Assembly (NCBI GenBank): GCA_033032175.1
Contig: CM065309.1
Coordinates: 3,968,001-4,032,000, forward strand
Direction of reading: 5' to 3'
Length of the DNA: 64,000 nucleotides
Source: Saturnia japonica
Lineage: Eukaryota > Arthropoda > Insecta > Lepidoptera > Saturniidae
Shown: positions 34,455 through 63,604 of the stretch, piece by piece
Position numbering within the stretch: position 1 is the stretch's first letter
Layout of the letters: the number at the start of each line of letters is the position of its first letter
Position numbers and translations under genes: made by a program
Notes under the pieces: generated by a model
What the model was told of the DNA's origin: nothing
The model's input: the letters and a program-made list of their open reading frames with translations, nothing else
Database searches by the model: none

Positions 34455-34741
34455 CTAACTAGGCATGTTAGCTTTTAGTCTTCGAACCCTGCCCTCTATA
34501 GCTGTAAGCATGTAGTAAATGGACTTGAGATGTTGTTTGTCGTGCCGGCACATGTCTGTCAAACTTGAATTTCTAGTTAAATTACAAGACATGGGTTTGT
34601 TCATGTAGCAATGGTATATTTTATTGGTTTGACAGCAGAGGTCGTTACGGCCGCTTGGCTTCATCGTACTAGCTTCCATGAACGTTATATCGGAAATGTC
34701 ATTATTGTACGGTTCGCTAGGTGCCGTTAGATGTTTTGTAA
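34455..34741 (-). CDS. Terminal exon of the large gene
   Basis: Acceptor tattttcag ends at 34742 on the minus strand. The frame runs 94 residues to TAG at 34455-34457. It is the longest exon and the most cysteine-dense: NDLCCQTNKIYHCYMN, then MSCNLTRNSS and TDMCRHDKQH. The end is basic (GRVRRLKANMPS). It accepts the single T left by the preceding exon (TTT, Phe). Confidence 0.75.
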
Positions 34742-37700
34742 CTGAAAATAAAAGTGGAATTTAACGAATAATTGAGTCATAAATAAGGAGGGGAAAGGTA
34801 AAACCGCAACTATCTTTAACCTTAAAGTTGAAAAAAGCGTCAACAAACAAATTACAATTAAAAAACACACTAAAATGGAAAATGGACTGGAAATTATACT
34901 TTTTCGTGATTTTATAGTTTTTACTGTTCTAAAACTTAAAAAAATAATTGAACAATAATAGGACAAGCTTGTGGTGTGAATAGTTGTTCAAGTGGGCTAA
35001 AATTAAGAAGTAATACATTTTGCGCCATCTTTAAAATTACGCACTTGCTACCGTGGCGCCCGCGCCACCCTAATTTGACACTTTACCACGGACACTTTCA
35101 TACATAGAGTTGGTAACTTTTTACAGAAATAAAATCAGCAGTGTTCAATTTTTTGTTTATGAATTTTTATTTAGGATTTCTGTTCACATGTTAACGATCA
35201 TCTATATTAATTATTGTTAACTAATTAATCTTAATAAAGAGTTTTTGACTAGATCTCAAGCAGTCATGTGGTGGTTTTTATTTTAATTCATAAATTTTTG
35301 TTATTTCGCCCTACATTATATAATTTTGGTGGCATTTTACTTGATTTAGTTTGGTTATTGTGAATGAAGTGGATTATCTAATAATAATAACTAAGAACAT
35401 GCATTTTAAGTTGCCACATACTCCTTGGATAGTTTCAACAAGGGAAGCATCATTTTGTTAGAGCTATGATCGAAGATTAAGATTATAATTATAATACGAA
35501 AAAACATGAAGAAATAAATAATGTATTCACATTACTTTGGCAGAATTGTGGAATAACACAGTTACCAATAACAAGATAAATTATTAAAAAGGAAAAAATA
35601 CCCGACTGCAACAAAAACATTTGACAAATTTTTATTTTTGCGTTTTATTTGATTCTCAGACGTTGTTCTGACATCACTCCCAGAATTAAGACGAATCTAA
35701 CGACATCTCCTAAGCTAAAGCTAAAATCCATCAAGCCATTTAGGCTACAGAGCGTGCCAAAGAAATATACATACATGCACTCGAAAAACTTAACCCTCCT
35801 TTTTCGCAGTCGGGTAAAAAGATGGATCTTAAATTGTACGGTGACAGTACCTTTTCAACAAAACTAGACATGGCTGTTTCCTATGTGTGACAAATTGAAG
35901 TGAATTTATATTATACTAAAACCAAAAACTTACTTAAACGTAGGTAGTAGATACTTAAAAAGATACCTCACATAATTCTAGCTGTTGAACACTGCGAAAA
36001 TATTTACTTACTAAGGTATTGTAAATCGTTAGGTATAAGGTCATAAATAAATAAATAAATGTTTTATACTCACAATTTTCTCTGACACGACCAAATTGTT
36101 TTGTTAACAACTGGCTATAATAGCGGCAAGTAGTGACCAAATGCGATTTCACAATATATTCCTCTAAGTATTCTGAAAATGAAGATAAACTATATCATAC
36201 ACCTACTTACCATACTTTTTAAGGATTTCTTTTATTCCACTTTATTACAAGGTCTATATTAGTTGGTCGAAATTCTAAAAATACTTAATTGATTAAGTCA
36301 ATAATTTCAAGAAAATGTTACAGACTAACGAGGTAGCTTATAAATGAGTAAAAACAAAACTGAAAGTACTAGTTTTTTTAAAATAATAGCTCGCGCATTG
36401 ACGGTACCTACGTAGGTACTGTCTTTGATGATAAGCTCAACAGAGTCCAAACATAACGGCAACCACCGAGAGATCTAAATCCATCGGCGGTCGCCGCTAT
36501 TAATACATACCTAGGTATTAATTATTTGAAACAAAATAATATTGTAAGATTGCATGACAGAGTTTATGTTTAAGTTTGTAAAAAGTATAGTGAAATAAAT
36601 CGATACCCAATAGGAATAACATCGTAACTCACTGGCAATGTTCAAGATTTTTTTATATAATGATTCAAATGTAAATTGGCTGATAGATACCTATTTGTGA
36701 GGTGTAACTAAGTAATGGACAATGAAAATAAACAAGAAATATCCTTTTTCTAAATTTCTAATGACAATTTCAGTTATGTAAAAATGGATCTATTAGTCTC
36801 AAAGATAAGACTGCAAAAGAAATACGAGTTTTATTTTTATATATTTTAAATGATTATATCATTAATATGTACTGGGTGTCGAAATATAATGGCTGGTTTG
36901 CTACCAAACGTGGATCTAGAGTTTATTTAGTTGGGGAAGGAGATCACGATCCTTGCCGAGATTCGCGCGTGTTTGCTAAACTAAGATAAAAAAACAATCA
37001 AATTTTTTACTCGTATTATCCATCGAAAGGTTAGCGAGTGTGAGACGACAGTTAGAACAAGAACATGTCTGAGTGAGGCCATCTAATAACAGACTCTTTT
37101 CCGACCACTTGTAGTCATTATCTGAAATAAATGAAATATGTATTGAATTGTGTTTCGTATTGTCGAATGATACTTGTGAGAAAACACACTATTTTACAGT
37201 AGTAAAATACAGTACAGTACAGTTTACAGTTACAGTAGTTTACAGTAGTTAGTAAACTACTATTAATATTATTATATTAAGTAAGTAATTGTTGTATATA
37301 TATATATGTAATTGGTTTCTCGGAAACGGCTACAACGATTTCGATTAAACTTTGAATTTAGATAATATTTTACATTCCAAGTTTACCTAGATAGGTGCTT
37401 TTCTTTTTTTGTTTATAAGACACCGAGCACGGCTCGGTCGCCCAGGTATTACTATATAATTCCTCATCTGCCTCATATATACTAGCTCATTAGCCTAGTC
37501 CTCGTTAGCGCGACTGCTATAATCGAGTTCCTAGGTTCGATTCCCAGATCGAGCAAAGTATTATTGGGATTTCTCTGAAATTCTCAGTAGCAGTTCGGAG
37601 TTTGGCTTTGTGCCCGATAAATGGCAATAGGCTCACCCCCTGTTACATAGGACCTAAAAAACACACGGCGAACTGTGGGTGTACATTGGTACACCTCTGC

Positions 37701-40700
37701 CTAACCCTTCGGGGATATAGGCGTAATAGTCCCAGTCAACACGTTACCTTTCCTTTACATCAGGCTGCCTGTCTACTGTAGCGGAGAAAAGCGAAGCTGT
37801 GCATATTTCGCTCAATAGAATTACATAAAAATCTAGAGACGTAATTCTATTGGTCGAGATTGCCTAGAGATGCAATTCTATTGGTCGAGATTGGTTAGAG
37901 ATGCAATTCTAATAATCGAAATTTTCACAGCTCCGCTTCAGTTGACAGGCAGCCTAACACACAGGTCATACGTGGGTCAAAGCCTAATGAATATACACAT
38001 GACATAAAACTGACAAGCTTATTGATCTCAAAGTTATGTCATTCTCCGTCAGAACATACTGATGTATAAATAAGACTTTAATATGATGTCAGGAATCCAC
38101 ATTAATAGTGTCTCTTCAAGCCAGCAATAATAGTCATAAATAATAGTTCACAAAAAGCAATACACACATGCGATCGATCGCAAAGAAACGGAATATACCT
38201 AGGTATCATCGAACACTTCTGCGAATAAAGAAGATTTAAAATGCTCAAGTAACATCCATCGTTAATTTTTGCTATGATGAACTTTAAAAAGAAAATTACT
38301 ATATATTATAAATAACAAACACGTCGAGTTTGTAAAACGAGATTTGACTCTTTCTATGGGATATATAATATTTTGTAGCAATAGAAATATATTTCATGGT
38401 TTTCTAAAACGGGTTATTCATTTTACTGTTTTTAAATCTGAGAAGTGGCACAGTATGACGCTACGAAGACTGTTCTTGTCTCTTATATCGAAGATTGGAT
38501 AAGAGATAGCCTCTTGGGATAGTGTACACGATAACGGTCTTTTATATTTTAAGGTCACCTGGTTGTGTAAAGTTATCCACAAAAGCTTGCTGCTTGATAA
38601 CCTTAGATGGAACGTGCTCGGTGGAACGTATATTTTGTTCGTTAAGTTTTTCATCTGGAAAAGGGAACATATATTTCAAATTACTAGGTTATTTGTTAAA
38701 GCAATCGTAAGAAGAACCAAAGGTCCGCAAAATTCGAAAGCCTAAATGATCTAACAAAAATATTGATAGATAGTTGTTATCCTATGAGTACCAAATAATG
38801 TGTACATAAGGAACAGATTAACAAATAGTTGGACTTTCACTTTACTAAAAATAGAGGGGTTTTTAGCCTACCTATTCAATTATTTGGCTGGAATGTAAAT
38901 GTGTGTGTACATACAAAATACAATTGCATACATACATACATACATAAATCAAACCTCTTTTCCAACGGGGAAAGCAGTGACCACGTCATTCCATTTGTTA
39001 GCTTGCTACGATCCGCGCATATATCTTTCGCTTCTTCAACATTCATCATTAATTTTATGCATGCTCGTTGGTTTAGAGTACTGTTGACCTGACCTTTCTT
39101 GAGAACGTCCCCGATTTGATCGTAGAACGTTCTTCTAGTTTTTCCTCTTCCAACGTTCTCATTCACTCTCGTCTTATAAATCTGTCTGGTCATTCTTCTT
39201 TCATTCATCCTCTCTACATGTACAAACCATCTAAGTATAAATAAAACACAATAACTTATAAGAATTGAGTGAAGATTTTAGTGCCATTTTGAGTTTAACT
39301 GTAAATATTGCTCTGTCGAATAGGTATTTAATTACGAATATAACATATTTATTTATTTTCAAGTTCATCAAGATATATATATATATATATATGTGTATAA
39401 GACAATAAATTTACCAGTAACATCAGCACGTGAAGTCAGAACACTGTGTTTTAATAATGGCAGTTTGTTGGAATCGTCTTTGAATACTAATTTTACAGTC
39501 TCGTACAGTGCTTTGTAAACTGAAAAATTAAATATCAAAATAATTAGATAACGTTATAACTAAAAAAAATGTAAATTAATCTTAATAAAGAGTTTTTGAC
39601 TAGATCTCAAGCAGTCATGTGGTGGTTTTTATTTTAATTCATAAATTTTTGTTATTTCGCCCTACATTATATAATTTTGGTGGCATTTTACTTGATTTAG
39701 TTTGGTTATTGTGAATGAAGTGGATTATCTAATAATAATAACTAAGAACATGCATTTTAAGTTGCCACATACTCCTTGGATAGTTTCAACAAGGGAAGCA
39801 TCATTTTGTTAGAGCTATGATCGAAGATTAAGATTATAATTATAATACGAAAAAACATGAAGAAATAAATAATGTATTCACATTACTTTGGCAGAATTGT
39901 GGAATAACACAGTTATCAATAACAAGATAAATTATTAAAAAGGAAAAAAAACCCGACTGCAACAAAAACATTTGACAAATTTTTATTTTTGCGTTTTATT
40001 TGATTCTCAGACGTTGTTCTGACATCACTCCCAGAATTAAGACGAATCTAACGACATCTCCTAAGCTAAAGCTAAAATCCATCAAGCCATTTAGGCTACA
40101 GAGCGTGCCAAAGAAATATACATACATACACTCGAAAAACTTAACCCTCCTTTTTCGCAGTCGGGTAAAAAGATGGATCTTAAATTGTACGGTGACAGTA
40201 CCTTTTCAACAAAACTAGACATGGCTGTTTCCTATGTGTGACAAATTGAAGTGAATTTATATTATACTAAAACCAAAAACTTACTTAAACGTAGGTAGTA
40301 GATACTTAAAAAGATACCTCACATAATTCTAGCTGTTGAACACTGCGAAAATATTTACTTACTAAGGTATTGTAAATCGTTAGGTATAAGGTCATAAATA
40401 AATAAATAAATGTTTTATACTCACAATTTTCTCTGACACGACCAAATTGTTTTGTTAACAACTGGCTATAATAGCGGCAAGTAGTGACCAAATGCGATTT
40501 CACAATATATTCCTCTAAGTATTCTGAAAATGAAGATAAACTATATCATACACCTACTTACCATACTTTTTAAGGATTTCTTTTATTCCACTTTATTACA
40601 AGGTCTATATTAGTTGGTCGAAATTCTAAAAATACTTAATTGATTAAGTCAATAATTTCAAGAAAATGTTACAGACTAACGAGGTAGCTTATAAATGAGT

Positions 40701-43700
40701 AAAAACAAAACTGAAAGTACTAGTTTTTTTAAATAATAGCTCGCGCATTGACGGTACCTACGTAGGTACTGTCTTTGATGATAAGCTCAACAGAGTCCAA
40801 ACATAACGGCAACCACCGAGAGAATCTAAATCCATCGGCGGTCGCCGCTATTAATACATACCTAGGTATTAATTATTTGAAACAAAATAATATTGTAAGA
40901 TTGCATGACAGAGTTTATGTTTAAGTTTGTAAAAAGTATAGTGAAATAAATCGATACCCAATAGGAATAACATCGTAACTCACTGGCAATGTTCAAGATT
41001 TTTTTATATAATGATTCAAATGTAAATTGGCTGATAGATACCTATTTGTGAGGTGTAACTAAGTAATGGACAATGAAAATAAACAAGAAATATCCTTTTT
41101 CTAAATTTCTAATGACAATTTCAGTTATGTAAAAATGGATCTATTAGTCTCAAAGATAAGACTGCAAAAGAAATACGAGTTTTATTTTTATATATTTTAA
41201 ATGATTATATCATTAATATGTACTGGGTGTCGAAATATAATGGCTGGTTTGCTACCAAACGTGGATCTAGAGTTTATTTAGTTGGGGAAGGAGATCACGA
41301 TCCTTGCCGAGATTCGCGCGTGTTTGCTAAACTAAGATAAAAAAACAATCAAATTTTTTACTCGTATTATCCATCGAAAGGTTAGCGAGTGTGAGACGAC
41401 AGTTAGAACAAGAACATGTCTGAGTGAGGCCATCTAATAACAGACCCTTGTCCGACCACTTGTAGTCATTATCTGAAATAAATGAAATATGTATTGAATT
41501 ATGTGTTTCGTATTGTCGAATGATACTTGTGAGAAAACACACTATTTTACAGTAGTAAAATACAGTACAGTTTACAGTACAGTACAGTACAGTTTACAGT
41601 TACAGTAGTTTACAGTAGTTAGTAAACTACTATTAATATTATTATATTAAGTAAGTAATTGTTGTATATATATATATATATGTAATTGGTTTCTCGGAAA
41701 CGGCTACAACGATTTCGATTAAACTTTGAATTTAGATAATATTTTACATTCCAAGTTTACCTAGATAGGTGCTTTTCTTTTTTTGTTTATAAGACACCGA
41801 GCACGGCTCGGTCGCCCAGGTATTACTATATAATTCCTCATCTGCCTCATATATACTAGCTCATTAGCCTAGTCCTCGTTAGCGCGACTGCTATAATCGA
41901 GTTCCTAGGTTCGATTCCCAGATCGAGCAAAGTATTATTGGGATTTCTCTGAAATTCTCAGTAGCAGTTCGGAGTTTGGCTTTGTGCCCGATAAATGGCA
42001 ATAGGCTCACCCCCTGTTACATAGGACCTAAAAAACACACGGCGAACTGGGGTGTACATTGGTACACCTCTGCCTAACCCTTCGGGGATATAGGCGTAAT
42101 AGTCCCAGTCAACACGTTACCTTTCCTTTACATCAGGCTGCCTGTCTACTGTAGCGGAGAAAAGCGAAGCTGTGCATATTTCGCCCAATAGAATTACATA
42201 AAAATCTAGAGACGTAATTCTATTGGTCGAGATTGCCTAGAGATGCAATTCTATTGGTCGAGATTGGTTAGAGGTGCAATTCTAATAATCGAAATTTTCA
42301 CAGCTCCGCTTCAGTTGACAGGCAGCCTAACACACAGGTCATACGTGGGTCAAAGCCTAATTAATATACACATGACATAAAACTGACAAGCTTATTGATC
42401 TCAAAGTTATGTCATTCTCCGTCAGAACATACTGATGTATAAATAAGACTTTAATATGATGTCAGGAATCCACATTAATAGTAAGTGTCTCTTCAAGCCA
42501 GCAACAATAGTCATAAATAATAGTTCACAAAAAGCAATACACACATGCGATCGATCGCAAAGAAACGGAATATACCTAGGTATCATCGAACACTTCTGCG
42601 AATAAAGAAGATTTAAAATGCTCAAGTAACATCCATCGTTAATTTTTGCTATGATGAACTTTAAAAAGAAAATTACTATATATTATAAATAACAAACACG
42701 TCGAGATTGTAAAACGAGATTTGACTCTTTCTATGGGATATATAATATTTTGTAGCAATAGAAATATATTTCATGGTTTTCTAAAACGGGTTATTCATTT
42801 TACTGTTTTTAAATCTGAGAAGTGGCACAGTATGACGCTACGAAGACTGTTCTTGTCTCTTATATCGAAGATTGGATAAGAGATAGCCTCTTGGGATAGT
42901 GTACACGATAACGGTCTTTTATATTTTAAGGTCACCTGGTTGTGTAAAGTTATCCACAAAAGCTTGCTGCTTGATAACCTTAGATGGAACGTGCTCGGTG
43001 GAACGTATATTTTGTTCGTTAAGTTTTCCATCTGGAAAAGGGAACAAATATTTCAAATTACTGGGTTATTTGTTAAAGCAATCGTAAGAAGAACCAAAGG
43101 TCCGCAAAATTCGAAAGCCTAAATGATCTAACAAAAATATTGATAGATAGTTGTTATCCTATGAGTACCAAATAATGTGTACATAAGGAACAGATTAACA
43201 AATAGTTGGACTTTCACTTTACTAAAAATAGAGGGGTTTTTAGCCTACCTATTCAATTATTTGGCTGGAATGTAAATGTGTGTGTACATACAAAATACAA
43301 TTGCATACATACATAAATCAAACCTCTTTTCCAACGGGGAAAGCAGTGACCACGTCATTCCATTTGTTAGCTTGCTACGATCCGCGCATATATCTTTCGC
43401 TTCTTCAACATTCATCATTAATTTTATGCATGCTCGTTGGTTTAGAGTACTGTTGACCTGACCTTTCTTTGAGAACGTCCCCGATTTGATCGTAGAACGT
43501 TCTTCTAGTTTTTCCTCTTCCAACGTTCTCATTCACTCTCGTCTTATAAATCTGTCTGGTCATTCTTCTTTCATTCATCCTCTCTACATGTACAAACCAT
43601 CTAAGTATAAATAAAACACAATAACTTATAAGAATTGAGTGAAGATTTTAGTGCCATTTTGAGTTTAACTGTAAATATTGCTCTGTCGAATAGGTATTTA

Positions 43701-46700
43701 ATTACGAATATAACATATTTATTTATTTTCAAGTTCATCAAGATATATATATATGTATAAGACAATAAATTTACCAGTAACATCAGCACGTGAAGTCAGA
43801 ACACTGTGTTTTAATAATGGCAGTTTGTTGGAATCGTCTTTGAATACTAATTTTACAGTCTCGTACAGTGCTTTGTAAACTGAAAAATTAAATATCAAAA
43901 TAATTAGATAACGTTATAACTAAAAAAAATGTAAATTTTATAATACAATAATTAGTTTCTTAATTATTAATTTACTCACCTTTTGGTGATAGAATTTCCC
44001 GTAAAACGTCACTGGTTTTTGTATGACAGCATATCGACGAGACAGAGTGTGAAGTGATTAGCCCAATGGAACGATTTTGAATTTGTCCTTTTTGATCCAA
44101 TTCTAAAACGTTAGAAATATGAGTAGGTACTACTAAGTACAACAATTTTTTTTTGAGTTAACATGTCAATGTTCATAATAATTACCTATCCATATTAGTT
44201 GATCTGGGGCTTATTTTTAAATGAAAATCTAAACTATCTTCAAGACAACGGAATTCTTATGTTTACGCGAATTAAATTTCTATTAAATATTTATCAAAAA
44301 TTATTATATTACGTTCTCCTTTTTAACGATTTATACTTTTATAGTTACTCAGTATATATACCCAGCTATGTTAGGTTACGTTGAACCTGCGATATAAAAT
44401 ATCCCGAGCTGGCAACCGCAATATACATTCACAGTGACACGTGGTCGGTTTAGTACACGACACATAAAAATTCTGTTAATATTTTAAAATTAAAATATCA
44501 AAAATTTATATAGCTCAATTGTTTCAGCATAGCTCAAAAAGAATATAACATAAATTTTTAGATGTATCTTTCGCCTTGGAAAAAGAAGATTTTTCATTTA
44601 AAAAGCGACCACTTTGATTTTTCTCAAGCTGTTTTGCCAAATTCAAAGGATCGCTTTAATACGTGCCATAGAATCTCGATAATCACAAAATATGCTAGAT
44701 TATAGTAGTATAGAGGAATGTTAATACAAGAAGACTTGCAAGCATCATACGATCATTTTCTTAGACTGAGATAAAAGATCAAATAATTTGCATAATTGCG
44801 AATTAACTTTATGTGCCGCTTAATTGAACATTTTGCAAACTACACTCAAAAGTGAAATTTATTATTTACATATTACATAATTATGATAAATCTGATAATT
44901 TTTTATTCTTCGTCTGATATTTAATGGCAATTCTTACCTTTGTCTTTGTGAAGAGGTTCGCTTTGAATTGCGACATCAGACTTTTGATTATGTATCATAC
45001 ATCGTGGCTTACCGTATACATAGTAGCAATCTGTGAAACATAATTAAAAATTGATAATAATTGTTTCTACAACTACCCATGAACATATAAAGTTTGTATA
45101 GGTATATTAAAAGGCACAGATTTAAGAACAAGTCAGATGTAGAGTTCAGAACAAGAAAAGACGGGACCAGCATTTAGCTATGTGCTTGACAGCTTGGTGA
45201 CAACACTATATAAAAAAGTGAGGCAGTATGCATATAAGCTTTTCAGGATAGTGAATATAAATTCCACTGTCTTGTATTTAATTGATAAACCACTCCAGCA
45301 GTGTAGTTGTTTGATCCATCCGTTACCCAAAAACTGATTTTATATTTGAAATCAAGAACCCTAATGACCGCTACATACTGATATTAAACCGGATCAAACT
45401 AACTGAACTCATAGACGTCATATTGATTAATGAGCCAATATGTGCTTCTGAATTGTATTTCATTGTTGGCGACTCTTTCGTGTTCCGTGCTTTACTCCTG
45501 CCTTTTTCTCAAATCTATGTTAAAAGGGATGTACTAATAATGGGGATGATATATTCGCTAGAGTAAAAGTGCTTAAAACAGGGAAAAATAGGATTGTACT
45601 TACTTGAAAGTTGATTCCCAATGCAATTGTTTGTTTCGTTTGCAAAACATGGCGAAGCAAATGGAAGATAGCATCTAGATGTTAAAATGGTTGCGGATCT
45701 TTGGATTTCTCGAGGCGTGCATTCTATAGCTGATTACGACCAACGATTTTAACAATGTATAAGCTGTTTAATGTATATATAAAAATAATATAATATCTAC
45801 CTATTTTGATTTTTTCGATTTCGATTTATTAAAGTTTATTGTGACCACACATTTGCTTTTGTAATTTTTGTCCAATTTAAGTATTATACTCAATTTCGAA
45901 TCTGGTTTTGTTGGGTCTGGCACAAAAGAAGAAATTCACCAAATAACTTTCACAAGATAATAGACATGCAATATTTCGGAATAACGGTATTATTTGTACC
46001 TGCATTACATATTTCTGGAGTGGCTTGAAGTTTAGTTTCTCTTAAATCTTTCTTTAGTGTTGTATCTAAAATGTAAAATTGATAGCTGTTTAAAATAAAT
46101 TACATTAAATAAAATTACGCAAGAATTTATACTTTTTTGGCGTACATAACAAAAATAATTACTAAAATTTTTATCCCGCATGTAAGCAACATCATGAAGA
46201 GTCAATGATAATAATGTGAATTCATTTTAATGCCATTATTCTCATCATCATCATCATCATCTGAGCCGAAAGACGTCCACTGCTGTATTCATATATCCCT
46301 CTCCCAATAATCGCCGCAATAAGTGGTCCTGCGCTTTTTGGATCCAACGGGTTCCAAATTGCAAATTGCAAATTTAGGTTTGCAAATTTACCAGGTCATC
46401 GATCCACCCTGTAGTGGGTCTACCCACGCTGCGTCTTCCGGTACATGGCCGCCATTTGAGAACTCTTCGGCCCCATCGGCTATCGTTCCTACGAGCAATG
46501 TGCCCCGCCTACTGCCACTTAAGTCAAGATGCTTGAAGATACTATCATTTATGGCTAACTTCATCATATCGCAGTTCCGTCAAATAAGTAAGTATAACTT
46601 AGTTTGAAGTGATGTGAATGCAATGATTAGTTTCAATTTACCTGAAGTGACTTGATCAACCATAAATTTACTTTTAATTCTAACGTCCGAATCAGATGTC

Positions 46701-49700
46701 CTTCTTGATGGTCTGTATATTGGAAGGATATCTGATAGGCTATCCTTTGATAATGCCACTATTGGTAATGCTGAAATAACTGAAGTTTTCAATTATTATA
46801 ATATATGTAATAAAGTAGTATAAGTTATTTATACTGCTCCTTAGATCGAATCGAAACTTAGTAAAAACAACCTTACTAATTATATGTATATAAGCAAAGT
46901 AAAATTTTTGTTTTTAAATCTTAAACTAAACTTAAAAAGCTATTGTAATGGTTCTTTGCAAATAGATTGTTTTAACGAGATATTTTACATTTACTCTGCC
47001 TAGATTCGTTACTAAATGTTAATAGATTTTGTTTACAAATTTTATATTCGTTAATAAATACAAGGGTATGAATCTACCGTAGCTATTAGTCCCACGATGT
47101 ATACTGCTTTCAGCTGTGTTGGTATTTTCTGCTACATAAATGGGTTTTAATTCTTCCACGTTATCTTTTCGATAATTGTTTACATGATGGTAATCTAAAG
47201 TTAAATATTTAAAAATATAAAATTTGTACTGTTCATTTATTTCTTCTATTATTACTTTGACACAATTTCACACACGGCCATTTAATGCCAAACTAAGCAA
47301 AGCTTGTAATAAGGTAACTAAACAGTTGATATAATACATAGATATACATTGATACAGTTGATAATATATAGATATTTTTATACCCAGACACACAACTGTC
47401 AGTCATGGGCGGGGATCGAACCCGCGACTTCTCGGCTCAAAAGTAGCGTTTCTACCACTGCGCCACGAGGCCTGTCACTAATCTATGCAATAATATTTTG
47501 AATATATTTTTTTAACCGTTTAAATGACATAATAAGAAATAAGTGAATTCTTCAATTTAGATAGGTACCTTTATTTTTAGTATCCAAGAAAATGACTGTT
47601 ATTGTGAACATATGGAAACAAAATAATTAAATTCAACATTTTCAGCAATTAATCTTAGAAACAGGGTTCCCTATCGTATAATTTTTTTTTCTTACAATTA
47701 TTTGGTTCATTTTCGACTCGTGTATTTTTTTTTTTATAAAATATATGAATGCAGTTTTTCTTTTTTTTTAAATCGTCATGTTCCTTAGTACATGTTTCTC
47801 TATCTTCTATAGTTTCAGAGTTCTCCTCACTGACCCATTTAAATGTTACACCTGTATATATTAATATTAAGCATGGGTACTACCTTTCTCCATATTTGCG
47901 CCTCTTTTGATCCATTTATCACCGTCCAGACCATTGGACAATACTCCACTAGTTTCATAATTTGGACGTATTTCCGAATTGGACCTTCTCTGGCCAATCA
48001 ATCGTGAAAGAGACATAATTTGATCGTTTATGAGCTCTGTCAATAACAGAAAAGCTATTTGTGTTCATTTGTTTAGATAGTATGATTTGCTTCGTTGTAC
48101 TATTACAATGTAGGTGATTTGTCAACAAAGAATCAGTAATAAATATATCTTCATAATTTATCCTAATTAAATAAGTATTTAGAACCGCTTCGGTTACAAA
48201 TAGGAATTGCCCCATTGAGCGTATTATATCTGAAATCTGTAACGTGGTGACTGTTGTTAGATGTGAAGTAATTTTTGAGCTTTTACCATATCTCCCTTCC
48301 AATACAAAACCACGCGGGCTGGTATTTGGAATCATAGCTGAACATTAGTAGCCATCGTGTTCAAGAAAAAACAAGTTTGCAAATTATTTCTTTTGCCATA
48401 CTTTGATGACGTGGAATCACCTCCCGGCCAGCGAGTTTCCTCCCTCCAACATTATTTGGTCGTTGTAACAAAGCGTGAAGCTGTATTTCAGTAGTAAAAT
48501 TGGTCACCGGCGGTCGTCGATATTTCAGGACTGCATCGTATTTTCTATGAAATACCTACTGTGCACTCATATAAAAAAATGAATTGGATATACTGTGATA
48601 CTTTTAACTAAAAAAAGATTTTCTTCCTCGTAAGAAGAAACAAAGAATAATGCTCATGAACGTAAGTTAGGTTATGAAAAAAATACCTACATAAAAACCA
48701 GTTTTAATGTTAGGGCCGATATGAGAGAAAGTGAATGCTGAGATGATGAAATGAATTCTATGAGAGCAAATGAGCTCATGAAGAGCTCAGCTGGACACCG
48801 CATCGAACGACGTGGGTTCGAAATCTTAAAATGAGCTTGAGCTTTCGGTAAAGGAAAAGACCTTGATGGAACCCATAGCATGTTGGCAAGAGATTATCTT
48901 GCTAAGGGAAATAAAAAATTGACTAATAGAAATTGTGAAGATATTGTTCAATATTATTTAACAAAAAAAAATTTGTAAACGAAATAAAATGTTTTCCAAC
49001 AATAACTTTATTTTTTAATAATAACAAATCTGAACAACATGATAGTTTGATATTTATTTTTTTACATATCATTAATAAAAACTTCTACAATTATTGCAAT
49101 AAATTCAATTTTGCTCAAAAATCGTATTAAAATAATAAAAATCCACTATGAAAATGGTGGATCCGTGAAAGTTACGTTTCGTAAGATTCGTGATATTTGA
49201 TTACTCTTTATAATACAGTAAAATTTCCATCATTTTCATGTCAATTATTTGTTTTAAAAAACAAAGTTCTTGTTGAAAAACTCAATAATGTCATATTGTA
49301 AAATTACTGTAAATTTTCGGAGTTACTTCCTTGGAATAGACGGGACTGCATTCACACGTTTTAATTTCCGCATGTGTTTGATGTAGGAAGGATGGCGTCT
49401 GTGTATGGCGTTCCAAATCTGTTTAACATAAGCAAAATTCAATATAACTGTGTAAGGGATCGGCATATTGCTTTTTTATTATTCATTGACAATTTTGTTC
49501 TCGAGGAAAATAGTATGTTTATATTTAGATTTATTGCGAATTTCTATTTCAAACCGTCTATTTCAATATTGGTCTAAATCTAAAATTGTGAGAAGATTTA
49601 TTTTATCAATTCTTTTTTTATATACTTATATTTTATTTACACTCTTCTTACGCGAGTTAAAATTAAATAATTACTACGAGTAATACTAGAAAGTTCTATT

Positions 49701-52700
49701 ATTGTAGCACTGTAAAGTGCAGGCATTGTGTGTGATAGTAAGTACACTTTACATTACAATCCAAAAACAATGGCGTCTACCGAGAAATCGACAATCTATC
49801 AGTCGTTGCTGTCTTGCTGGTCTGCAAGCACCTTGAAAGCAGGTAGCTGAATGTACATTGGAAGATCCCGAAGCGCGATAAACCAAATGAGTCAGTCTGA
49901 CGGGTTTAATATTATGCTCATGGTGGTCACGACAAACTTAGACATAGATCCCCACCACCCAGCTTGATTACTCGATGGATATACTCCGGTTGTCATATCC
50001 TACCACCCAAAATTAGCATTTAGCACCAATCTTCGGTAGGTGGATAGATATTTCAAGAAGAAGAATGTGTTGATAAGTTTATAATGAATTGAAATTAAGG
50101 CTACGTACGTTTATTTGAAAAGTTGTCTGTATTTGTTTCATGGTCAGAGTTTAGGTTTTCGCAAGAGCACATTAAAATTTGTCCTGAAAATATTAAATAG
50201 GTAGTTTTAATGTTAGCGATGCATTGGAATTTAAAGTAGGTTCACGTTTTGCTAATAGAACCTCTACTAATAAGGCGATGTATAACATGAGAAATCAATG
50301 ATGGCTTAGTTGCTTGTTCGGACTACGCAGCGATCGACGTGAGCTCGAATCCTGCAATTAGTCTGAGGTTTTCGGTCAAGGAAAACAACGTGATGAAACC
50401 ATAGCATTGTGGTAGGGTTTTTTCTAATACCCGCCTGGCTAGCTACCACTATGAAGTTAAAAATCTGTCACCAAACACTAATAGGTTTGTTCCGGCTGCT
50501 GCACTTGAGAACTAGTCTTCCACTTCGCTTAGCGTGCTACCATCTTGTGCCACATCACTACTTAAGATCAGGTGAGTTTGTGACCACAATGCTAAACCTA
50601 TATCGAAAAAAAAATCCTTTATAAGAAAATAAAATGACAAATACACAACACAAATAGTTTTGAATTATACGTACTTTAGTAATTGCAATAGTGTGTAAGT
50701 ATTTAGGTAAGCAAGTAAGAAGTTATACTTCTTTGGCGTAACAAAACAAAAATAACTTCAAAAGTGTGCACGTGCTGACGATATGATGAAGTTAGCCAGT
50801 CATCAATGATTTAGCGGTGGTGAGGAACAGAGAGTAAAGTTCCTCATCCGCCATAGAAAAGGGAGGATCCTCCGGCCAGACGGGTGCTATGTCTGGCGGG
50901 CAGCTGCCCCGACGGTTGTAGTCGGGTTCTTGTATATATACTCAACGATTGAGTTAATTTCTATAGCGCAATGTAGGATAGTAGGATGCGTCTTATGTGG
51001 CTCGTTAGATGTAGCTATGTGTCGCTACGTAGTTGCGTCGATGCGTCAGTTGTGGCGAGAGATGTCGCTACAAATGATAATATTGTGAAAGCATTTTAGA
51101 AACTTTTTCTTTTAGATCTGACTATACTGTTAGACATAAGGGCTCTGGAGCTTTAGACCGTTTTTACAGCTTCACCGTGGCTTGGGGGCTAGCGCCTAAG
51201 GCACTCAGTCGCAAAAGCGTGGCAACATGCTCAAGGGCGCCAAAGTGGTCGGACCTCGGCTTGGGCTGTTGCCGATCACGCGATAAAGTCATGATATAGC
51301 TAATTTCCTATTCGTATAATTCGAGCTAACTAACTGTACATATATACATGCTCCTGTCTCCTGGGAGGAAGGAAGGAAACATGTGTACATGTATTTAGTG
51401 ATCTGTCAATTTTTGTCTACACTAACTAGCCAAGAAACTTTTTTTAGATTGTGTAATTGTGAGAAGAAATTGTATGAATTTAGATTATTATTATTGACGG
51501 TTAATTTCCGACTGGTAATTCCAGAGGTGTAGAGTATTTAAACAAACAAACAAAAAAAAACTTTTTCGCTTTATTATATTTTATTATTATTTTGTATATA
51601 TAAGCAATAACTAGCTGATTCGTGCGAATATTTCGCACATTAAACAGTGTAAAAAATGTAACTAACAGTTGTAATGTTAATTTGTGTAGATGGCGCCTCC
51701 TACATGTTAGTTGGATATATTTTATTATTACACCAAAAACATTAATTCTAAAGGGAATATAAGATTTAAAATGATGTTGCCACAAAAAATATCTTTGTGA
51801 AATAATACGTAGAGTTAAACAATAAAATACAATTCTTACCGACTTCCTTAGTAACAGTGTTTGTGCTAACTGTATTTGGACCTTTTGTGGTCTGCACTGT
51901 TGTACACTTTGAGGTGACTACTGGTTCGCAATTACATCCCAATGGCGTATCTAGAACAGTCCCTATGGAAGATGAAATGGAAGATAAGACTGTATCCTAT
52001 AAATTCTAACTAAAAATAACGAATAAAATTAATTGAATATAAATATAAATACAACAAACAAAATAAACACGCTCGCTAAATTGATAACACAAGAAAATGA
52101 TGATCTTTCGAAAACGATTTTTTTATAAAATCTGGTTAATCTTTGGATGTCATTTACTACTGAACTTGTATTTGAACTTCATTATTACTTTTTTAAATTA
52201 TTTCTTTAATCACTACCACTTAATAGCAAGTGCACTATTAATCGTTTATTCATACGTACTCAAATAACACAGTTAATATTACTCCTGCCAAACTATCGCA
52301 GTTTGTTTGCAGACGTCGCTAGCTCCCTTTTTACATCATAATTTATTTAGTGTTATATATTATTTTTACACGAAATATTCCCAAACTAAGATTTATATGA
52401 AAATCTTCACAAAGAAACTTGGTTATTTTTTTTTAATGATATTTTGTAAAGCAGTTACTGTCTATTTCACACGATATGTTATTAAGAATAGTTGGAATTA
52501 AATAACTTTACATCTTTGTTGTTATTATATCCTCTCTTAACATACATCACCGAACCCATAGATTTAATGATTGAATACATACAGATCGGTAGCTCGAAAG
52601 AGAAAAAGCATAGTATACGCTTCCGACAGAACGAAATACGACTTACGTTACGTTATGAAAGCCTATATATACTACATGATTACCAAAACAAATCCCACTA

Positions 52701-55700
52701 ATTTTTGTAATATCTAAATTGTCATTTAATGTTTAATAGACTTGTTTAATTGTGGTTACGTGTACTGTACCTGAATGTAACTCGTTTAACAAAGAAACTA
52801 ACTAATTAATACGCAAACTAGCGTATTCCGTCTTTGGTCTCGTCTTATTCAACCTATTTCCGATCGTAAACTATAGGTTTAAATCTATGACCAATCCTGT
52901 CATTTCCAATTTGAATTATTATGCTTTTATTTTAAGTAAAACTCTTTACATTTGTGTCTAATGGCTTGGAAGCATAAGAATATGTAAGAGCTGATATTAG
53001 GGAACGACTCGTCACTGGATGTCATTTTTCTATGGTAATATAAATGTATGCATTGATTAGCTTCATTTCGTATAAAATTTTATTGCTATATAAAAAAAAA
53101 TTTGGGTAAATTTTTTCACACTTCTTAAATTCAAATAAAAAAAGAGTTATTTGACACATAATATTCAGAAAGTGTGACTATTTTCACCACAATAAAGAAA
53201 GAAGTTTAGCAAGCAAAAGTTAATCAAGTTAATCATCATAAAAATTCACTTTCATCATTTTTTCATAATGAATAAATGTTATAAATATGCTATTATCAGT
53301 TTTAAACTCTTAACTTATATTATTAATGCGACAATGAGCTAGTTTGTTTATTACTCAATCAGGAAAGATTGGTTAAATGAATTTGGATGAATTTTTGCAC
53401 ACAATCTGTTTGTAACTAGGATTAACACGTATGATACTTATCCTGGTAAACAACCAATTCTGAAGTCCACATAGACGAAGTTAGTAATATATAATGTAAT
53501 TAAAAAAACCTTACCTAAGCTAGGCTGTCATGAATATGATGGAAAAAAGGATTTAATTGTAACTTTAGGAAATGAGTACAATTGGGTTGTTGTTGGATGT
53601 TTTTATATGTGTAGAGATGCGATAAACGCGTTTTATTATGGCATTATTAAAGTCAGGTAATTGCTCGACATTCATTCAGTCACTTATTATCCAGTATATA
53701 ACCACGTGCTTATACGTCACCACAGCTCAAAATATACTATATTCATTTCTTTGTAACAACAAAAAATGACATATAAAGGCTTTCGTATTTTTTGCGTACT
53801 GTGTAACTGGAAGGATTATTTATAGTTTAATTGTGCTGTTTTTATAAGATGTTAGCGTATGTTGCGTCTATCATTTTCTTTTAAATAAAAAACGATGTTT
53901 ATGGACTTCGAAACGGGCGAAATCGATTTTGATGAAATTTTCAGACAGCGGGTGATTCTATAAAGTTTGGTAGGAATCGGATCAATGTTCCATGGACTCC
54001 AAAACGGAACAGCAAGCCGTGACAAGAGTTAGCTCGTATATTATAAAATGTTATATTATGTTTACGTGAACTTATTGGCATTGTTTATGATATGTTTATA
54101 ATAAAATATATTTTTACCAGCATCTTGACAAATGCTTCGAGTCTGTGTGGCGACGTCGTCAAAGGAGCCATTCAGTGTGCACACGGAAAGCAAACGACTG
54201 CGTCCGATACATGTCGATTGTAATAAATATGAATCTATAAATATGAAATTTATTTTAATAATAAATATACATAGTCTTATGACTAAAATATATTACTTAT
54301 GTCTTGTGTTATACAAGACAAAAACGTTTATACAATTGCTAGGATAATTGTTTTTACTGCGGTTATTGTTAGAACTCTAATAATTCATTTGTCCTCAAAA
54401 AATTTAATAGCTTAGTGGATGGAGTAGGTACATAATACATATTTGCATTGTACGTAGGCCAATTATATTATCATAAAATATTAAGCTTGTGTATCTGTCT
54501 TTCGTCGTAGTTTGGCACATGAGCGCCACTAGGATTACTTTCAGGGAGGTGCATCAGAACCTATATGTACCTTATCTATAAATATAATATTTATGTAATA
54601 ACACATATATAAGTTAATGTTAAAGCTTTATGTTTTTATTCCAACATTAAATACGGTTGTTTCGTCTTTCTGCAATAAAAAACATTTTGTTATTTAATTT
54701 TATGTTTTCGATTTGTTATTTGATTGTTGAGGTTGAAACTAATCGTGGAAAATACGAAACAACTGTATATCTTTTCAGGTGGAAGTAGCAAAGAAAATTC
54801 GGATAAAGTAATTACAATGGATTTCTGCAAAGTAACATCTACATCAATCAAATATATTCTTTCTCCCAAGTGCACCCGCTTGCACCCTGGTGCAGGCCGG
54901 TGCCAATGTCCAGGGATGAGTTCGAGGATCATTATAATGAAGTCATTTTGATTAGATCGTATTTAGTGTTTTAGAGGAAAACTCTTCTTTTTCTTTTCTC
55001 TGACTTGGCAACTAGTTCTCTTTATTGAAGACCATTACTGCCATTATCAAGTGAAGTGTCCTGTGTTATCATGATTTCAGTATCCTAACAAGATGGTGGG
55101 CTCCCTTATTAGAACTTTCTAGGGAGTTTTTGTGGCACCTCAAAATGCATATTTCCAGTTTATAAAAAACCACTTCACGTATGCACAATATCCAAACTAG
55201 ATCACGCAATACACCACCAATATTAGATAATATAGAGTCAATAACCTAAGTTAATAAATAAAACCACATCATGACATATCAAGATGCCGCCAAAAACTCC
55301 AAAGGAAACTACCTCACGGATGAGTAAACATATTATAATTCTTTTCTTTAAATATTTAATTGAAGTTGCTATACTGAAAAGATATAAAATTATTTTAATT
55401 TTAATACCTTCGCTAATAAAAACGTTATTAACATTGAAAGACATTACCAAGTTGCTTAAAATACGTACCACAATTTTCATTGGATTGAATACCGGCTTCC
55501 AACTTATTGTTCATATCAAATGAAAAATTTGTATTTATATCTGTAAGTGTGGACAACCCTAATGATTTCAACTGGGTTTTTACATCATCTGTACTGGTTT
55601 TTACCGAATAGTACGTAGATCGCATATCTATAACATGTACGGAATTTTCATATGATTTTTATGAATGAAAGTAAAGTTTAAAAAAAAAACATGGTGATCG

Positions 55701-58700
55701 AGTGGTTTAGAACGGCGGAATATCGATACGATGTGTGCAGGTTCGGGCCCCCGTATGTACCAACGAATTTAACGGAATTCGCGTACGGTTATTAATTTAA
55801 ATTGATAACACTAACGGCCGACGGTGAAAGAAAATATCGCGAGGATACCTGAGCAAAGGAGAAATGCATTTGTAGTACCACTGTATGTGGGAAAAAATAT
55901 AGAACTGTTTATTTTTCGGCGTTTGAAATCGCCAATACATCGTGAGCTGGTGCCGGTGAAGTGATTAATCTTTGGATGTCATTTACTACTGAACTTGTAT
56001 TTGAACTTCATTATTACTTTTTTAAATTATTTCTTTAATCACTACCACTTAATAGCAAGTGGACTATTAATCGTTTATTCATACGTACTCAAATAACACA
56101 GTTAATATTACTCCTGCCAAACTATCGCAGTTTGTTTGCAGACGTCGCTAGCTCCCTTTTACATCATTATTTATTTAGTGTTATATTTTATTTTTACACG
56201 AAATATTCCCAAACTAAGATTTATATGGAAATCTTCACAAAGAAACTTGGTTAATTTTTTTAATGATCTTTTTGTAAAACAGTTACTTTCTATTTCATAC
56301 GGTATGATATTAAGAACAGTTGGAATTAAATAACTTCTACATCTTTGTTCGTAATAAGCAAGCGGAGCAAGTTTATTATATCCTCTCATAACATACATCA
56401 CCGAACCCATAGATTTAATGATTGAATACATACAGATCGGTAGCTCGAAAGAGAAAAAGCATAGTATACGCTTGCGACAGAACGAAATACGACTTACGTT
56501 ACGTTATGAAAGCCTATATATACTACATCATTACCAAAACAAATCCCACTTATTTTTGTAATATCTAAGAATATAAATTGTCATTTAATGTTTAATAGAA
56601 TTGTTTAATTGTGGTTACGTGTACTGTACCTGAATGTAACTCGTTTAACAAAGAAATTAACTAATTAATACGCAAACTAGCGTATTCCGTTTTTGGTCTC
56701 GTCTTATTCAACCTATTTCCGATCGTAAACTATAGGTTTAAATCTATGACCAATCCTGACATTTCCAATTTGAATTATTATGTTTTTATTTTAAGTAAAA
56801 CTCTTTACATTTGTGTCTAATGGCTTGGAAGCATAAGAATATGTAAGAGCTGATATTAGGGAACGACTCGTCACTGGATGTCATTTTTCTATGGTAATAT
56901 AAATGTATGCATTGATTAGCTTCATTACGCATAAAATTTTATTGCTATATAAAAAAAAATTTGGGTAAATTTTTTCACACTTCTTAAATTCAAATAAAAA
57001 AGAGTTATTTGAGACATAATATTCAGAGAGTGTGACTATTTTCACCACAATAAAGAAAGAAGTTTAGCAAGCAAAAGTTAATAGTGTATACTTTTTGCTG
57101 TAATGTTCGCGTTCATCGTGAAATTTCACTTTCATAATTTTTTCATAATGAAGAAATGTTATAAATATGCTATTATGAGTTTTAAAATCTTAACTTATAT
57201 TATTATTGCGACAGTGAGCTAGTTTGTATATTAATTACTCAATCAGGAAAAATTGGCTGAATAGATTTGGATGAAATTTTGCACACAATCAGTTTGTAAC
57301 TAGGATTAACACGTATGATACTTAGCCTGGTAAACAACCAATTCTGAAGTCCACATAGACGAAGTTAGTAATAAATAATGTAATGTTAAAAAAATCTTAC
57401 CTAAGCTAGGCTGTCATGAATATGATGGAAAAAAGGATTTAATTGTAACTTTAGGAAATGAGTACAATTGGGTTGTTGTTGGATGTTTTTATATGTGTAG
57501 AGATGCGATAAACGCGTTTTATTATGGCATTATTAAAGTCAGGTAATTGCTCGACATTCATTCAGTCACTTATTATCCAGTATATAACCACGTGCTTATA
57601 CGTCACCACAGCTCAAAATATACTATATTCATTTCTTTGTAACAACAAAAAATGACATATAAAGGCTTTCGTATTTTTCCCACTTTTTGCGTACTGTGTA
57701 ACTGGAAGGATTATTTATAGTTTAATTGTGCTGTTTTTATAAGATGTTAGCGTATGTTGCGTCTATCATTTTCTTTTAAATAAAAAACGATGTTTATGGA
57801 CTTCGAAACGGCTGAAATCGATTTTGATGAAATTTTCAGACAGCGGGTGATTCTATAAAGTATGGTAGGAATCGGATCAATGTTCCATGGACTCCAAAAC
57901 GGAACAGCAAGCCGTGACAAGAGTTTGCTCGTATATTATAAAATGTTATGTTATGTTTACGTGAACTTATTGGCATTGTTTATGATATGTTTATAATAAA
58001 ATATATTTTTACCAGCATCTTGACAAATGCTTCGAGTCTGTGTGGCGACGTCGTCAAAGGAGCCATTCAGTGTGCACACGGAAAGCAAACGACTGCGTCC
58101 GATACATGTCGATTGTAATAAATATGAATCTATAAATATTAAATTTATTTTAATAATAAATATACATAGTCTTATGACTAAAATATATTACTTATGTCTT
58201 GTGTTATACAAGACAAAAACGTTTATACAATTGCTAGGATAATTGTTTTTACTGCGGTTATTGTTAGAACTCTAATAATTCCTTTGTCCTCAAAAAATTT
58301 AATAGCTTAGTGGATGGAGTAGGTACTTAATACATATTTGCATTGTACGTAGGCCAATTATATTATCATAAAATATTAAGCTTGTGTATCTGTCGTTCGT
58401 CGTAGTTTGGCAGATGAGCGCCACTAGGATTACTTTCAGGGAGGTGCATCAGAACCTATATGTACCTTATCTATAAATATAATATTTATGTAATAACACA
58501 TATATAAGTTAATGTTAAAGCTTTATGTTTTTATTCCAACATTAAATACGGTTGTTTCGTCTTTCTGCAATAAAAAACATTTTGTTATTTAATTTTATGT
58601 TTTCGATTTGTTATTTGATTGTTGAGGTTGAAACTAATCGTGGAAAATACGAAACAACTGTATATCTTTTCAGGCGGAAGTAGCAAAAACTTCGGATAAA

Positions 58701-61700
58701 GTAATTACAATGGATTTCTGCAAAGTAACGTCTACATCAATCAAATATATTCTTTCCCCCAAGTACACCCCCTTGCACCCTGGTGCAGGCCGGTGCCAAT
58801 GTCCAGGGATCATTATAATGAAGCCATTTTGATTAGATCTTATTTAGTGTTTTAGAGGAAAATTCTTCTTTTTCTTTTCTCTGACATGGCAACTAGTTCT
58901 CTTTATTGAAGACCATTACTGCCATTATCAAGTGAAGTGTCCTGTGTTATCATGATTTCAGTATCCTAACAAGATGGTGGGCTCCCTTATTAGAACTTTC
59001 TAGGGAGTTTTTGTGGCACCACAAAATGCATATTTCCAGTTTATAAACCACTTCACGTATGCACAATATCCAAACTAGATCACGCAATACACCACCAATA
59101 TTAGATAATGTAGAGTCAATAACCTAAGTTAATAAATAAAACCACATCATGACATATCAAGATGCCGCCAAAAACTCCAAAGGAAACTACCTCACGGATG
59201 AGTAAACATATTATAATTCTTTTCTTTAAATATTTAATTGAAGTTGCTATGCTGAAAAGATATAAAATTATTTTTATTTTAATACCTTCGCTAATAAAAA
59301 CGTTATTAACATTGAAAGACATTACCAAGTTGCTTAAAATACGTACCACAATTTTCATTGGATTGAATACCGGCTTCCAACTTATTGTTCATATCAAATG
59401 AAAAATTTGTATTTATATCTGTAAGTGTGGACAACCCTAATGATTTCAACTGGGTTTTTACATCATCTGTACTGGTTTTTACCGAATAGTACGTAGATCG
59501 CATATCTATAACATGTACGGAATTTTCATATGAATTTTATGAATGAAAGTAAAGTTTTAAAAAAAACATGGTGATCGAGTGGTTTAGAACGGCGGAATAT
59601 CAATTCGATGTGTGCAGGTTCGGGCCCCCGTATGTACCAACGAATTTAACGGAATTCGCGTACGGTTATTAATTTAAACTGATAACACTAACGGCCGACG
59701 GTGAAAGAAAATATCGCGAGGATACCTGAGCAAAGGAGAAATGCATTTGTAGTACCACTGTACGTGGGAAAAAATATAGAACTGTTTATTTTTCGGCGTT
59801 TGAAATCGCCAATACATCGTGAGCTGGTGCCGGTGAAGTGATTAAGTCCGTACCTTTCGTTGGAAAGAGGCCTCATAGGGCAGAGAGACAAAATCATTCA
59901 AGGAAGGGTAGTTTGAAAAAAAAACTGTGGTTGTTATTTTATTACTTTTAAGATGAAACGCACAAATTAATTAATGAGATTTATATTTATATTCACTTAT
60001 ATTCATAATAGAGCTTAGTTCAGTTTTACGCTTAACTCATCTAAGAATATAATTAACTGTTTATTACTATACCATTACATAGAGTTAGTAAATATAAATT
60101 TATAAAATAAAAAATTCTTAATCACATAATGTTAAATTAAATGTAAGGTTTTATTGTACTCCACGGCATATTAACGGTACTGACTCTGACACACCGTAAA
60201 TTCCTAACACAACGGCTATCACCCAAAGATCGCAATCCATCGATCCAAAAGCGAGTCACTATGACGGACTTTTCACCACATGCGTGGTGGTCGCGATCCA
60301 GTCGGCAAAACAACCCTACCTAAAGTTATTCGAATATGGCTCCCTTATTTCTTAATATGAATATTATTAGTCCTTAGTTTCATACACAATCTTTTAATTT
60401 GATTTCTGTTCAATGAATGATATTAGTTTTTATTTTCATAGTCTCTTTTTTTTCTTAAGATACATTTTATTTGGATTATTACAATGCAAGAGAAATTTAT
60501 ATAACTGCCATTTTTTAAATTATTTTTTTTATATATCATTCAAAACAAATTTTAGTGTAACAAGATTTTTTTTTAAATATATACCGTTTGAATTAAAACA
60601 ATTTCATGTTTATCTCCTTAAAAGCGTTCAATTTTTATCAAGTAATACAATTGCATTACAGAAAAAACTTGGAAATATGTTGATACTCAAGGTTTCGTCT
60701 TCTATGTACGATTTATAGACAGTTTTATAAAGAAAACGACTTAAAGCATACATAGCCAAAGGCTAAAATACTATAGAACCGAGATTACTAGATTGAGATT
60801 AATGGCCCCTCATCTATCAAATTGAAGGGCTCTGTTAAATGTATAATACTACATTCAAGCTGAAATTTTAAGATAACCACTACAGAGATTTCAAATTTAT
60901 TTGTATTTTAGATTATATACAATTAATCTTAAAGGCTCAGCTGATATAAAACGGCTTTATTGAATTGATTGTTTATTAATTTTTAAACCGTGTTATACAT
61001 AACCTGTATGTGTAATATGTTAACCCGTGTTAAATTTATTCGACCTTATATCGTCGTTCCCACGTCTCGTATTTGCCTACAGCTTGCCAGATTGCTTTAC
61101 ATTTATTTACTGCTGCGCTTCTTAGAGTCCCACCGTGAAGTTATATAGTCTATAACCTCCCTAATAAATAGGCTATAAAATACGAAAACATTTATTTTTA
61201 TTAGATTGGTATTTTCAGAGATATTACCGCGTTCAAACAAGCAAAAAACAATTGCTCATAAGTTATAATATTAAAAGTACCTATAAGTATTTATTTTTTT
61301 CTGAAATTAATTTTAACATTGGATAGACGTATTAAATGTATACGTAATACGTCACTGCACAATAAACACCTGCGGGCCTAGCACAGTTGAAATCGTTAAT
61401 GCTAATAGAAAATGAAAAAAAAAAGTATGGAATTGACATTTTCGATCACGTGATTTAACATTCAGATATGAAAATTGCGCATACATTTGTAGCGACATCG
61501 ATATAGCAACATCTATCTCGCCACATACGAATATATATATGATGGAGCCACACATTTTTTTTAGGGATCTGTTGCGTTAACGATTGTGACTCAACATTTT
61601 TGTAAATAAATGTAATTTAATTAATCATGTAATTATACTAATCTGTTATTAGTAAGGTTGATTTTGTCGTGTATATAATCAAAACTTACCGTTCTCTTTA

Positions 61701-63604: not shown

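Follow-up and report, generated by a model that had tools for sequence, protein, structure and literature searches.

We show that the 64,000-nucleotide stretch of Saturnia japonica DNA analyzed here (the window) contains the 3′ half of a real and unstudied gene that is common to moths and butterflies, has orthologues in other species, is locked in phase 1 in this genome, and carries tandem duplications. The gene is genuine, undescribed in the literature, and Lepidoptera-wide, and its uniform-phase architecture is rare. It is predicted to span ∼53 kb of the minus strand, from an ATG at window-equivalent position 87,736 (coordinates are continued past the window edge, which the ATG lies 23.7 kb beyond) to a stop at 34,455. 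The final model consists of 43 exons, 22 of them in the window, with 5,055 coding nt and 1,684 amino acids. All 42 introns are in phase 1, and the 41 internal exons are 66 to 243 nt long and multiples of three.

A preliminary description of the window had placed the gene at 34455 to 63604, with 28 exons. The mini-exon gene and its stop stand, the terminal exon being matched by 15 of 15 orthologue models, whereas the 5′ limit does not. The gene runs on beyond the window, and 21 more exons were found at 64.9 to 87.7 kb on the same strand (upstream exons were traced to 87,537, plus a first exon with the ATG at 87,736). The exon count within the window became 22 in our model, and 16 of these 22 scored above 20 of 20 shuffles.

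Orthologues and the phase 1 exons

The minus strand between 34 and 64 kb contained 70 candidate phase 1-1 AG..GT blocks with a longest chain of 4,023 nt, compared to at most 35 blocks and 2,763 nt for the other 11 combinations of phase, strand, and half-window. The simulated expectation for the same phase was 16.2 ± 5.2 blocks and 1,046 ± 329 nt (60 second-order Markov simulations). The enrichment extends past the window edge and is clearest at 80 to 90 kb. Splice thresholds were relaxed, as strict ones yielded almost nothing, and an unforced chain had more than 30 phase 1-1 blocks in the window, many of them without orthologue support. Because chained phase 1-1 blocks form a single frame almost by construction, the lone open frame is weak evidence; it is the orthologues, not the open frame, that bear the weight of the gene claim.

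Exons of the model were selected partly by phase, and checks using free borders and shuffles therefore matter. In a phase-free check, the best-scoring splice border of any phase was taken around 15 orthologue-matched cores. The freely chosen acceptors were in phase 1 in 12 of 14 cases (one core had no acceptor) and the donors in 13 of 14. At the two acceptor exceptions the core alignment extends into the intron, and at the one donor exception there is a stronger GT farther along the open frame. Overall, 25 of 28 free borders were in phase 1 (binomial probability of ∼1e-9 at p = 1/3 and ∼1e-6 at p = 0.45), a calculation that assumes independent borders and includes, among its 15 cores, two that are copies of one exon. 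The symmetric phase 1-1 mini-exons reported from the first reading of the sequence are thus borne out.

Joined window pieces matched an unnamed Colias eurytheme protein, the one match at E ≤ 10 among 6,021 candidates. After further searches with this protein, and then with the full model, the set comprised 15 proteins, drawn from 13 species: Colias, three Pieris species, Maniola, Pararge, Vanessa, Epargyreus (Hesperiidae), Bombyx, two Mythimna species (Noctuidae), Arctia (Erebidae), and Galleria (Pyralidae). Bombyx mori LOC101735909, Maniola jurtina LOC123866640, and Pieris brassicae LOC123712210 are among them, and none is functionally named. The orthologues match exon by exon, are collinear, and share the MKPSGR/AIEGRxRR C-terminus, and their matches run in protein order both without any constraint on order and in order-imposing chains (13 of 15 proteins). 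They differ from this gene in the content and number of their cassettes, and the other models are 22 to 48% identical to that of Colias. Among the 4,819 candidates scored, no match at E ≤ 1 came from outside Lepidoptera, in a search that requires shared 5-residue words and similar length and that distant relatives may escape. All 85 tblastn matches at E ≤ 0.01 fell within the gene span on the minus strand, with none elsewhere in 224 kb. The exons in the window are as follows.

34455..34741, minus: terminal coding exon and stop, with the conserved MKPSGR, AIEGRVRR-type C-terminus; all 15 orthologue models, raw score 236 versus shuffle maximum 50
36074..36172, minus: exon YLEEY..VREN, second copy of duplication 1; orthologue support and duplication alignment
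38559..38654, minus: exon EKLNEQ.., second copy of duplication 1; good splice sites, without orthologue support
39415..39519, minus: exon YKALYET.., second copy of duplication 1; orthologue support and duplication alignment
40425..40523, minus: exon YLEEY..VREN, first copy of duplication 1; orthologue support
42936..43031, minus: exon GKLNEQ.., first copy of duplication 1; good splice sites, without orthologue support
43775..43879, minus: exon YKALYET.., first copy of duplication 1; orthologue support
43980..44129, minus: exon ..SIGLITSHSVSSICC..; orthologue support
44938..45030, minus: exon CYYVYGKPRCMIHNQ..; core matched by 12 orthologue models
45604..45729, minus: exon ..RSATILTSRCYLPF..; orthologue support
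45851..45916, minus: exon ..SKLSIILKLDKN..; one orthologue, Mythimna separata, raw score 43 versus shuffle maximum 39
46000..46065, minus: exon TTLKKDLRETKLQATPEICNA; orthologue support
46642..46770, minus: exon ..SKDSLSDILP..MVDQVTS; orthologue support
47884..48036, minus: exon LINDQIMSLSRLIGQRR..GDKWIKRG..; raw score 139 to Bombyx
50109..50183, minus: exon QILMCSCENL..; marginal, raw score 44 versus shuffle maximum 42
51840..51962, minus: exon ..NCEPVVTSKCTTVQTTKG..; no support beyond splice sites and order, 2 of 20 shuffles reach its score
54118..54234, minus: exon ..IGRSRLLSVCTLNGSFDDVATQT.., second copy of duplication 2; orthologue support
55469..55627, minus: exon MRSTYYSVKTST.., second copy of duplication 2; coding-identical to the first copy, 3 of 20 shuffles reach its score
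58013..58129, minus: exon ..IGRSRLLSVCTLNGSFDDVATQT.., first copy of duplication 2; orthologue support
59347..59505, minus: exon MRSTYYSVKTST.., first copy of duplication 2; weak orthologue match, 5 of 20 shuffles reach its score
61690..61806, minus: possible exon EKGNFAGVK..; splice sites only, without orthologue support, 18 of 20 shuffles reach its score
63539..63604, minus: exon VTTDRVTYKDNECLTTPSLQR; orthologue support

Scored against the 15 orthologues, 29 of the 43 exons exceeded all 20 of their own shuffles, compared to ∼2 expected by chance, and 20 exceeded the best of all 860 shuffles. The other 14, including the ATG exon 1, failed to beat their own shuffles.

Failing exons upstream, outside the window: 87736, 87201, 86055, 83176, 71036, 68644, 66321, 65588
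Failing exons in the window: 61806, 59505, 55627, 51962, 43031, 38654

These 14 exons are provisional, placed by splice sites and order, and several resemble the orthologues by eye only. In the shuffle test, the candidate blocks left out of the model (1,277 in all) scored a median of 31, with the 99th percentile at 48 and the highest score at 59. Since such blocks score as high as 59, the model may still lack a few real exons.

The gene appears to be single-copy in this genome. With the 616-amino-acid joined window piece as the query, which lacks the upstream exons, all 20 matches at E ≤ 1 were the gene's own exons and no paralogue was found. The "undescribed gene family" of the preliminary description is therefore not a family within the genome, nor is it new to the databases, which hold automatic models from 13 species. 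It is undescribed in the literature: judged by title and abstract, no paper was found on the LOC numbers, and none of those on gene architecture describes the gene.

Protein disorder and SxIP motifs

The first reading had recognized no domain in the joined product, and profile searches agree with it. Pfam gave no credible family for the 15 orthologues (five families, each in one member, with a best E of 0.0005 in a table that shows no curated cut-offs) and no family for the 616-amino-acid piece. NCBIfam gave three families, each in 1 of the 15 proteins, two of them in the Colias protein P0001 far below the cut-off, and a PDB profile search gave no matches. AlphaFold2 assigned a pLDDT below 50 to 722 of the 791 residues of the Colias model. 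A pLDDT of at least 70 was reached by 31 residues, mainly near 690 to 710 and 770 to 790, inside helices 677 to 709 and 767 to 790. The prediction used the 15-sequence alignment, and the Colias model has no N-terminus, so the SxIP region discussed below lies outside it. A large and mostly disordered protein is predicted. A SAxVxTS-like motif is present in three copies in the window gene, compared to 0.14 expected, and is above shuffles in several, not all, of 16 sequences.

SxIP motifs were counted as [ST]x[IL]P with a basic residue and no acidic residue nearby, following the criteria in the excerpts of PMC9877351 (those of PMC4365484 also give a definition); the "nine residues" of these criteria were assumed to be a 3+4+2 window. 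Some trends were apparent. First, all 11 models that reach exon 86,941 (seven genera, the window gene included) have at least one SxIP motif, such as PSSIPRR, where 0.03 to 0.16 are expected in the first 150 residues. Second, six of these 11 models have a second motif, which is of the SKLP type in four of the six. Third, no SxIP motif is present within the first 150 residues of the five models whose start lies further downstream. The motif is short, its counts across relatives are not independent, and the single copy in each of the four Pieris models falls short of significance when taken by itself (P of 0.06 to 0.10).

Our preferred reading, to which we give about an even chance, is that the gene encodes a Lepidoptera-wide, disordered, microtubule-linked scaffold, built of phase-locked cassettes and without a signal peptide. 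The N-terminus, with its one or two SxIP motifs, would bind EB1 and thereby bring the protein to growing microtubule ends, and the conserved C-terminal helices would hold a partner. The intervening cassettes may be a spacer built of short motifs, differing in number and make-up from species to species and perhaps from isoform to isoform. This gives the functionally unnamed Bombyx mori gene a testable hypothesis. The conserved PSxIPRR block could also serve another end, for example, nuclear import. Involvement in the unusual spindle or sperm of Lepidoptera is speculation, and no literature was found on Bombyx with EB1 and the spindle.

Another possible, though rather improbable, explanation retains the same gene and architecture but takes the conserved basic N-terminus as nuclear or kinetochore/spindle associated, the SxIP motif as incidental, and QT motifs as recruiting LC8 (dynein light chain). 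QT-type motifs could bind LC8. Triplets in which QT is preceded by T, S, V, I, A, L, or C were above shuffles in five of eight representatives (z of 2.6 to 4.2). However, the enrichment was absent in two of the eight (z of −0.7 in Epargyreus and −0.5 in Pieris) and weak in the window gene (z of 1.6), and TQT itself was enriched in none of them (z of −0.9 to 1.1). Multiple LC8 binding was demoted as the main reading because of this inconsistency. According to the excerpts of PMC4843017, the spindle protein SKAP carries an SxIP motif at its N-terminus, and LC8 may be part of its complex. In the excerpted descriptions of SKAP and other SxIP +TIPs (PMC4843017, PMC4365484, PMC9877351), the feature in common with the present protein is an N-terminal SxIP motif with basic neighbors. 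In contrast, the Pfam and PDB profile searches gave no credible sequence relationship, and EB1 binding is putative here; SKAP may at best be a functional analogue.

Tandem duplications and cassette growth

Both duplications that had been noticed within the gene were confirmed.

35223..43937: tandem duplication 1, units 35223-39577 and 39574-43937, 98.6% identity
52133..59845: tandem duplication 2, units 52133-55968 and 55962-59845, 95.7% identity

Both are head-to-tail, with units that abut with a 4- to 7-bp overlap; duplication 1 carries three exons (100 amino acids) and duplication 2 carries two (92 amino acids). In the older duplication 2, none of the 89 substitutions counted by MAFFT (76 by blastn) falls in the 276 coding nt, where 6.3 were expected (p of ∼0.0015), and none of the 13 gap events is coding (0.9 expected). 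The exons of duplication 2 are under constraint, which we count in favor of the gene. The younger duplication 1 has 13 substitutions over 4,384 columns, of which one is coding compared to 0.9 expected, and is uninformative in this respect. The stretch from 35223 to 35522, at the end of duplication 1, looks like a dispersed repeat, with 40 scored genome matches from 3,044 candidates (two of the 40 are the stretch itself and its copy). Being repeat-like, it may have seeded duplication 1.

It is unlikely that both duplications are assembly artefacts caused by unmerged haplotypes, in which case the gene would have 38 exons, not 43. The few differences between the units of duplication 1 are within plausible heterozygosity. 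However, the units abut with short overlaps, duplication 2 is more diverged and yet has no exon substitutions, and internal repeats are found in the proteins of other lineages too.

These repeats, in four other genera, together with the two duplications here, bear out the earlier suggestion that the gene grows by duplication of exon blocks. Tandem repeats above shuffle maxima were present in the proteins of both Mythimna species (offsets 45 to 49), Arctia (28 and others), Pieris brassicae and P. macdunnoughi (40), and Pararge (72). The best internal repeat of Maniola (61) is level with shuffles (60), the Bombyx protein has no internal repeat at the threshold, and P. rapae is without the Pieris repeat. 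Descent of all cassettes from a single exon was considered but not adopted; the best internal match of the model minus the duplicate copies was 47 versus shuffle maxima of 38 to 46.

The two models of P. brassicae, and likewise the two of Pararge, differ by whole blocks, which may partly be due to automatic annotation. For example, the block matching exon 40425..40523 is absent from one P. brassicae model, and most of the block matching exon 44938..45030 is absent from one Pararge model. Of 38 block ends, 34 could be mapped (one block, with which a model begins, was excluded), and 12 of the 34 lie no more than 2 residues from a junction of this gene, compared to 13% of positions. As a test of exon-border conservation, this is supportive only. 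If the orthologues share the phase 1 lock, to which only these 12 of the 34 block ends point, the lock was kept while the sequence diverged to ∼30% identity, and exon number itself would be the evolving trait.

Since every intron of the model splits a codon after its first base, a mini-exon can be copied or dropped without a frame shift. We regard as doubtful the more specific proposal that the protein is a scaffold of microtubule plus ends, confined to Lepidoptera, and that each lineage tunes its length and motif count by duplicating or skipping phase-locked mini-exons. The gene offers a system for asking how disordered proteins acquire length and binding sites.

Comparison with known systems and neighboring loci

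Symmetric small exons are used as cassettes in the PEVK exons of titin and in schistosome micro-exon genes. The cassette exons of this gene resemble the titin PEVK exons in their symmetry, but their composition is not rich in P, E, V, and K. The closest architecture is that of the aphid bicycle genes. In the excerpts of PMC9168663, the bicycle and megacycle genes have many small internal exons, nearly all of one phase, evolve fast, and are confined to a single group of insects; megacycle itself is a very large single gene with more than 100 microexons. The bicycle genes, as described there, form a family with phase 2 exons, and many of their proteins have signal sequences and CYC motifs. The gene studied here likewise has small single-phase exons, fast evolution, and occurrence in one insect group, but its exons are in phase 1, it appears to be single-copy, and its N-terminus is not signal-like by hydropathy. 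Because the bicycle genes are a family with phase 2 exons and, in many cases, signal sequences, this gene is not a member.

The bicycle genes, with uniform phase and many signal sequences in the same excerpts (PMC9168663), also lend something to the idea of a repetitive secreted protein (silk-, mucin-, or effector-like) that expands by duplicating exons, as do fast evolution and a Ser plus Thr content of ∼19 to 22%. The preliminary description had leaned this way, taking symmetric phases as typical of extracellular proteins. We consider this reading very unlikely, and the extracellular assignment is unsupported in view of the predicted disorder, the SxIP motif at the N-terminus, and the hydropathy values. 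In 15 of 16 sequences, 19-residue hydropathy was at most 1.26, with no membrane-like helix, and 9-residue hydropathy near the start was at most 1.46, with no signal-like start, a verdict given by hydropathy alone. The exception was the Pararge protein P0012 (19-residue value of 1.78 at residue 4), which has an unusual start that matches no other by eye. The protein studied here seems to be intracellular. Finally, a decaying pseudogene or chance open blocks would fit the fast divergence from the Colias model (22 to 48% identity) but can hardly be credited against the collinear orthologues, the good splice sites, and the absence of coding substitutions in duplication 2.

Several other loci were observed around the gene. 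Lysine-rich reading frames on the minus strand at window-equivalent 88046 to 89353 apparently belong to a separate gene, and this upstream frame ends near 88,046, ∼300 bp before the predicted ATG. Within the window, arrestin domains at 21068 to 21960 on the minus strand (PF02752, E of 2e-10; PF00339, E of 6e-10) are consistent with the Arr2 named in the preliminary description, and weak WD40-type matches below Pfam cut-offs at 29102 to 29452 on the plus strand are compatible with its Pex7. A Tc1/mariner-like transposase remnant lies in two adjacent frames at 16171 to 17148 on the minus strand (HTH_Tnp_Tc3_2, E of 1.5e-19; DDE_3 below the cut-off). An open 230-residue His/Glu-rich block with no Pfam match occupies 4061 to 4750 on the plus strand. 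At window-equivalent −144 to 65, also on the plus strand, is a frame resembling a THAP-type zinc finger. A long LTR-retrotransposon-like reading frame was found at window-equivalent 143221 to 147247 on the plus strand, and a tandem array with a unit of ∼191 bp (offsets 195, 386, 577, and onward) at window-equivalent 116134 to 117851.
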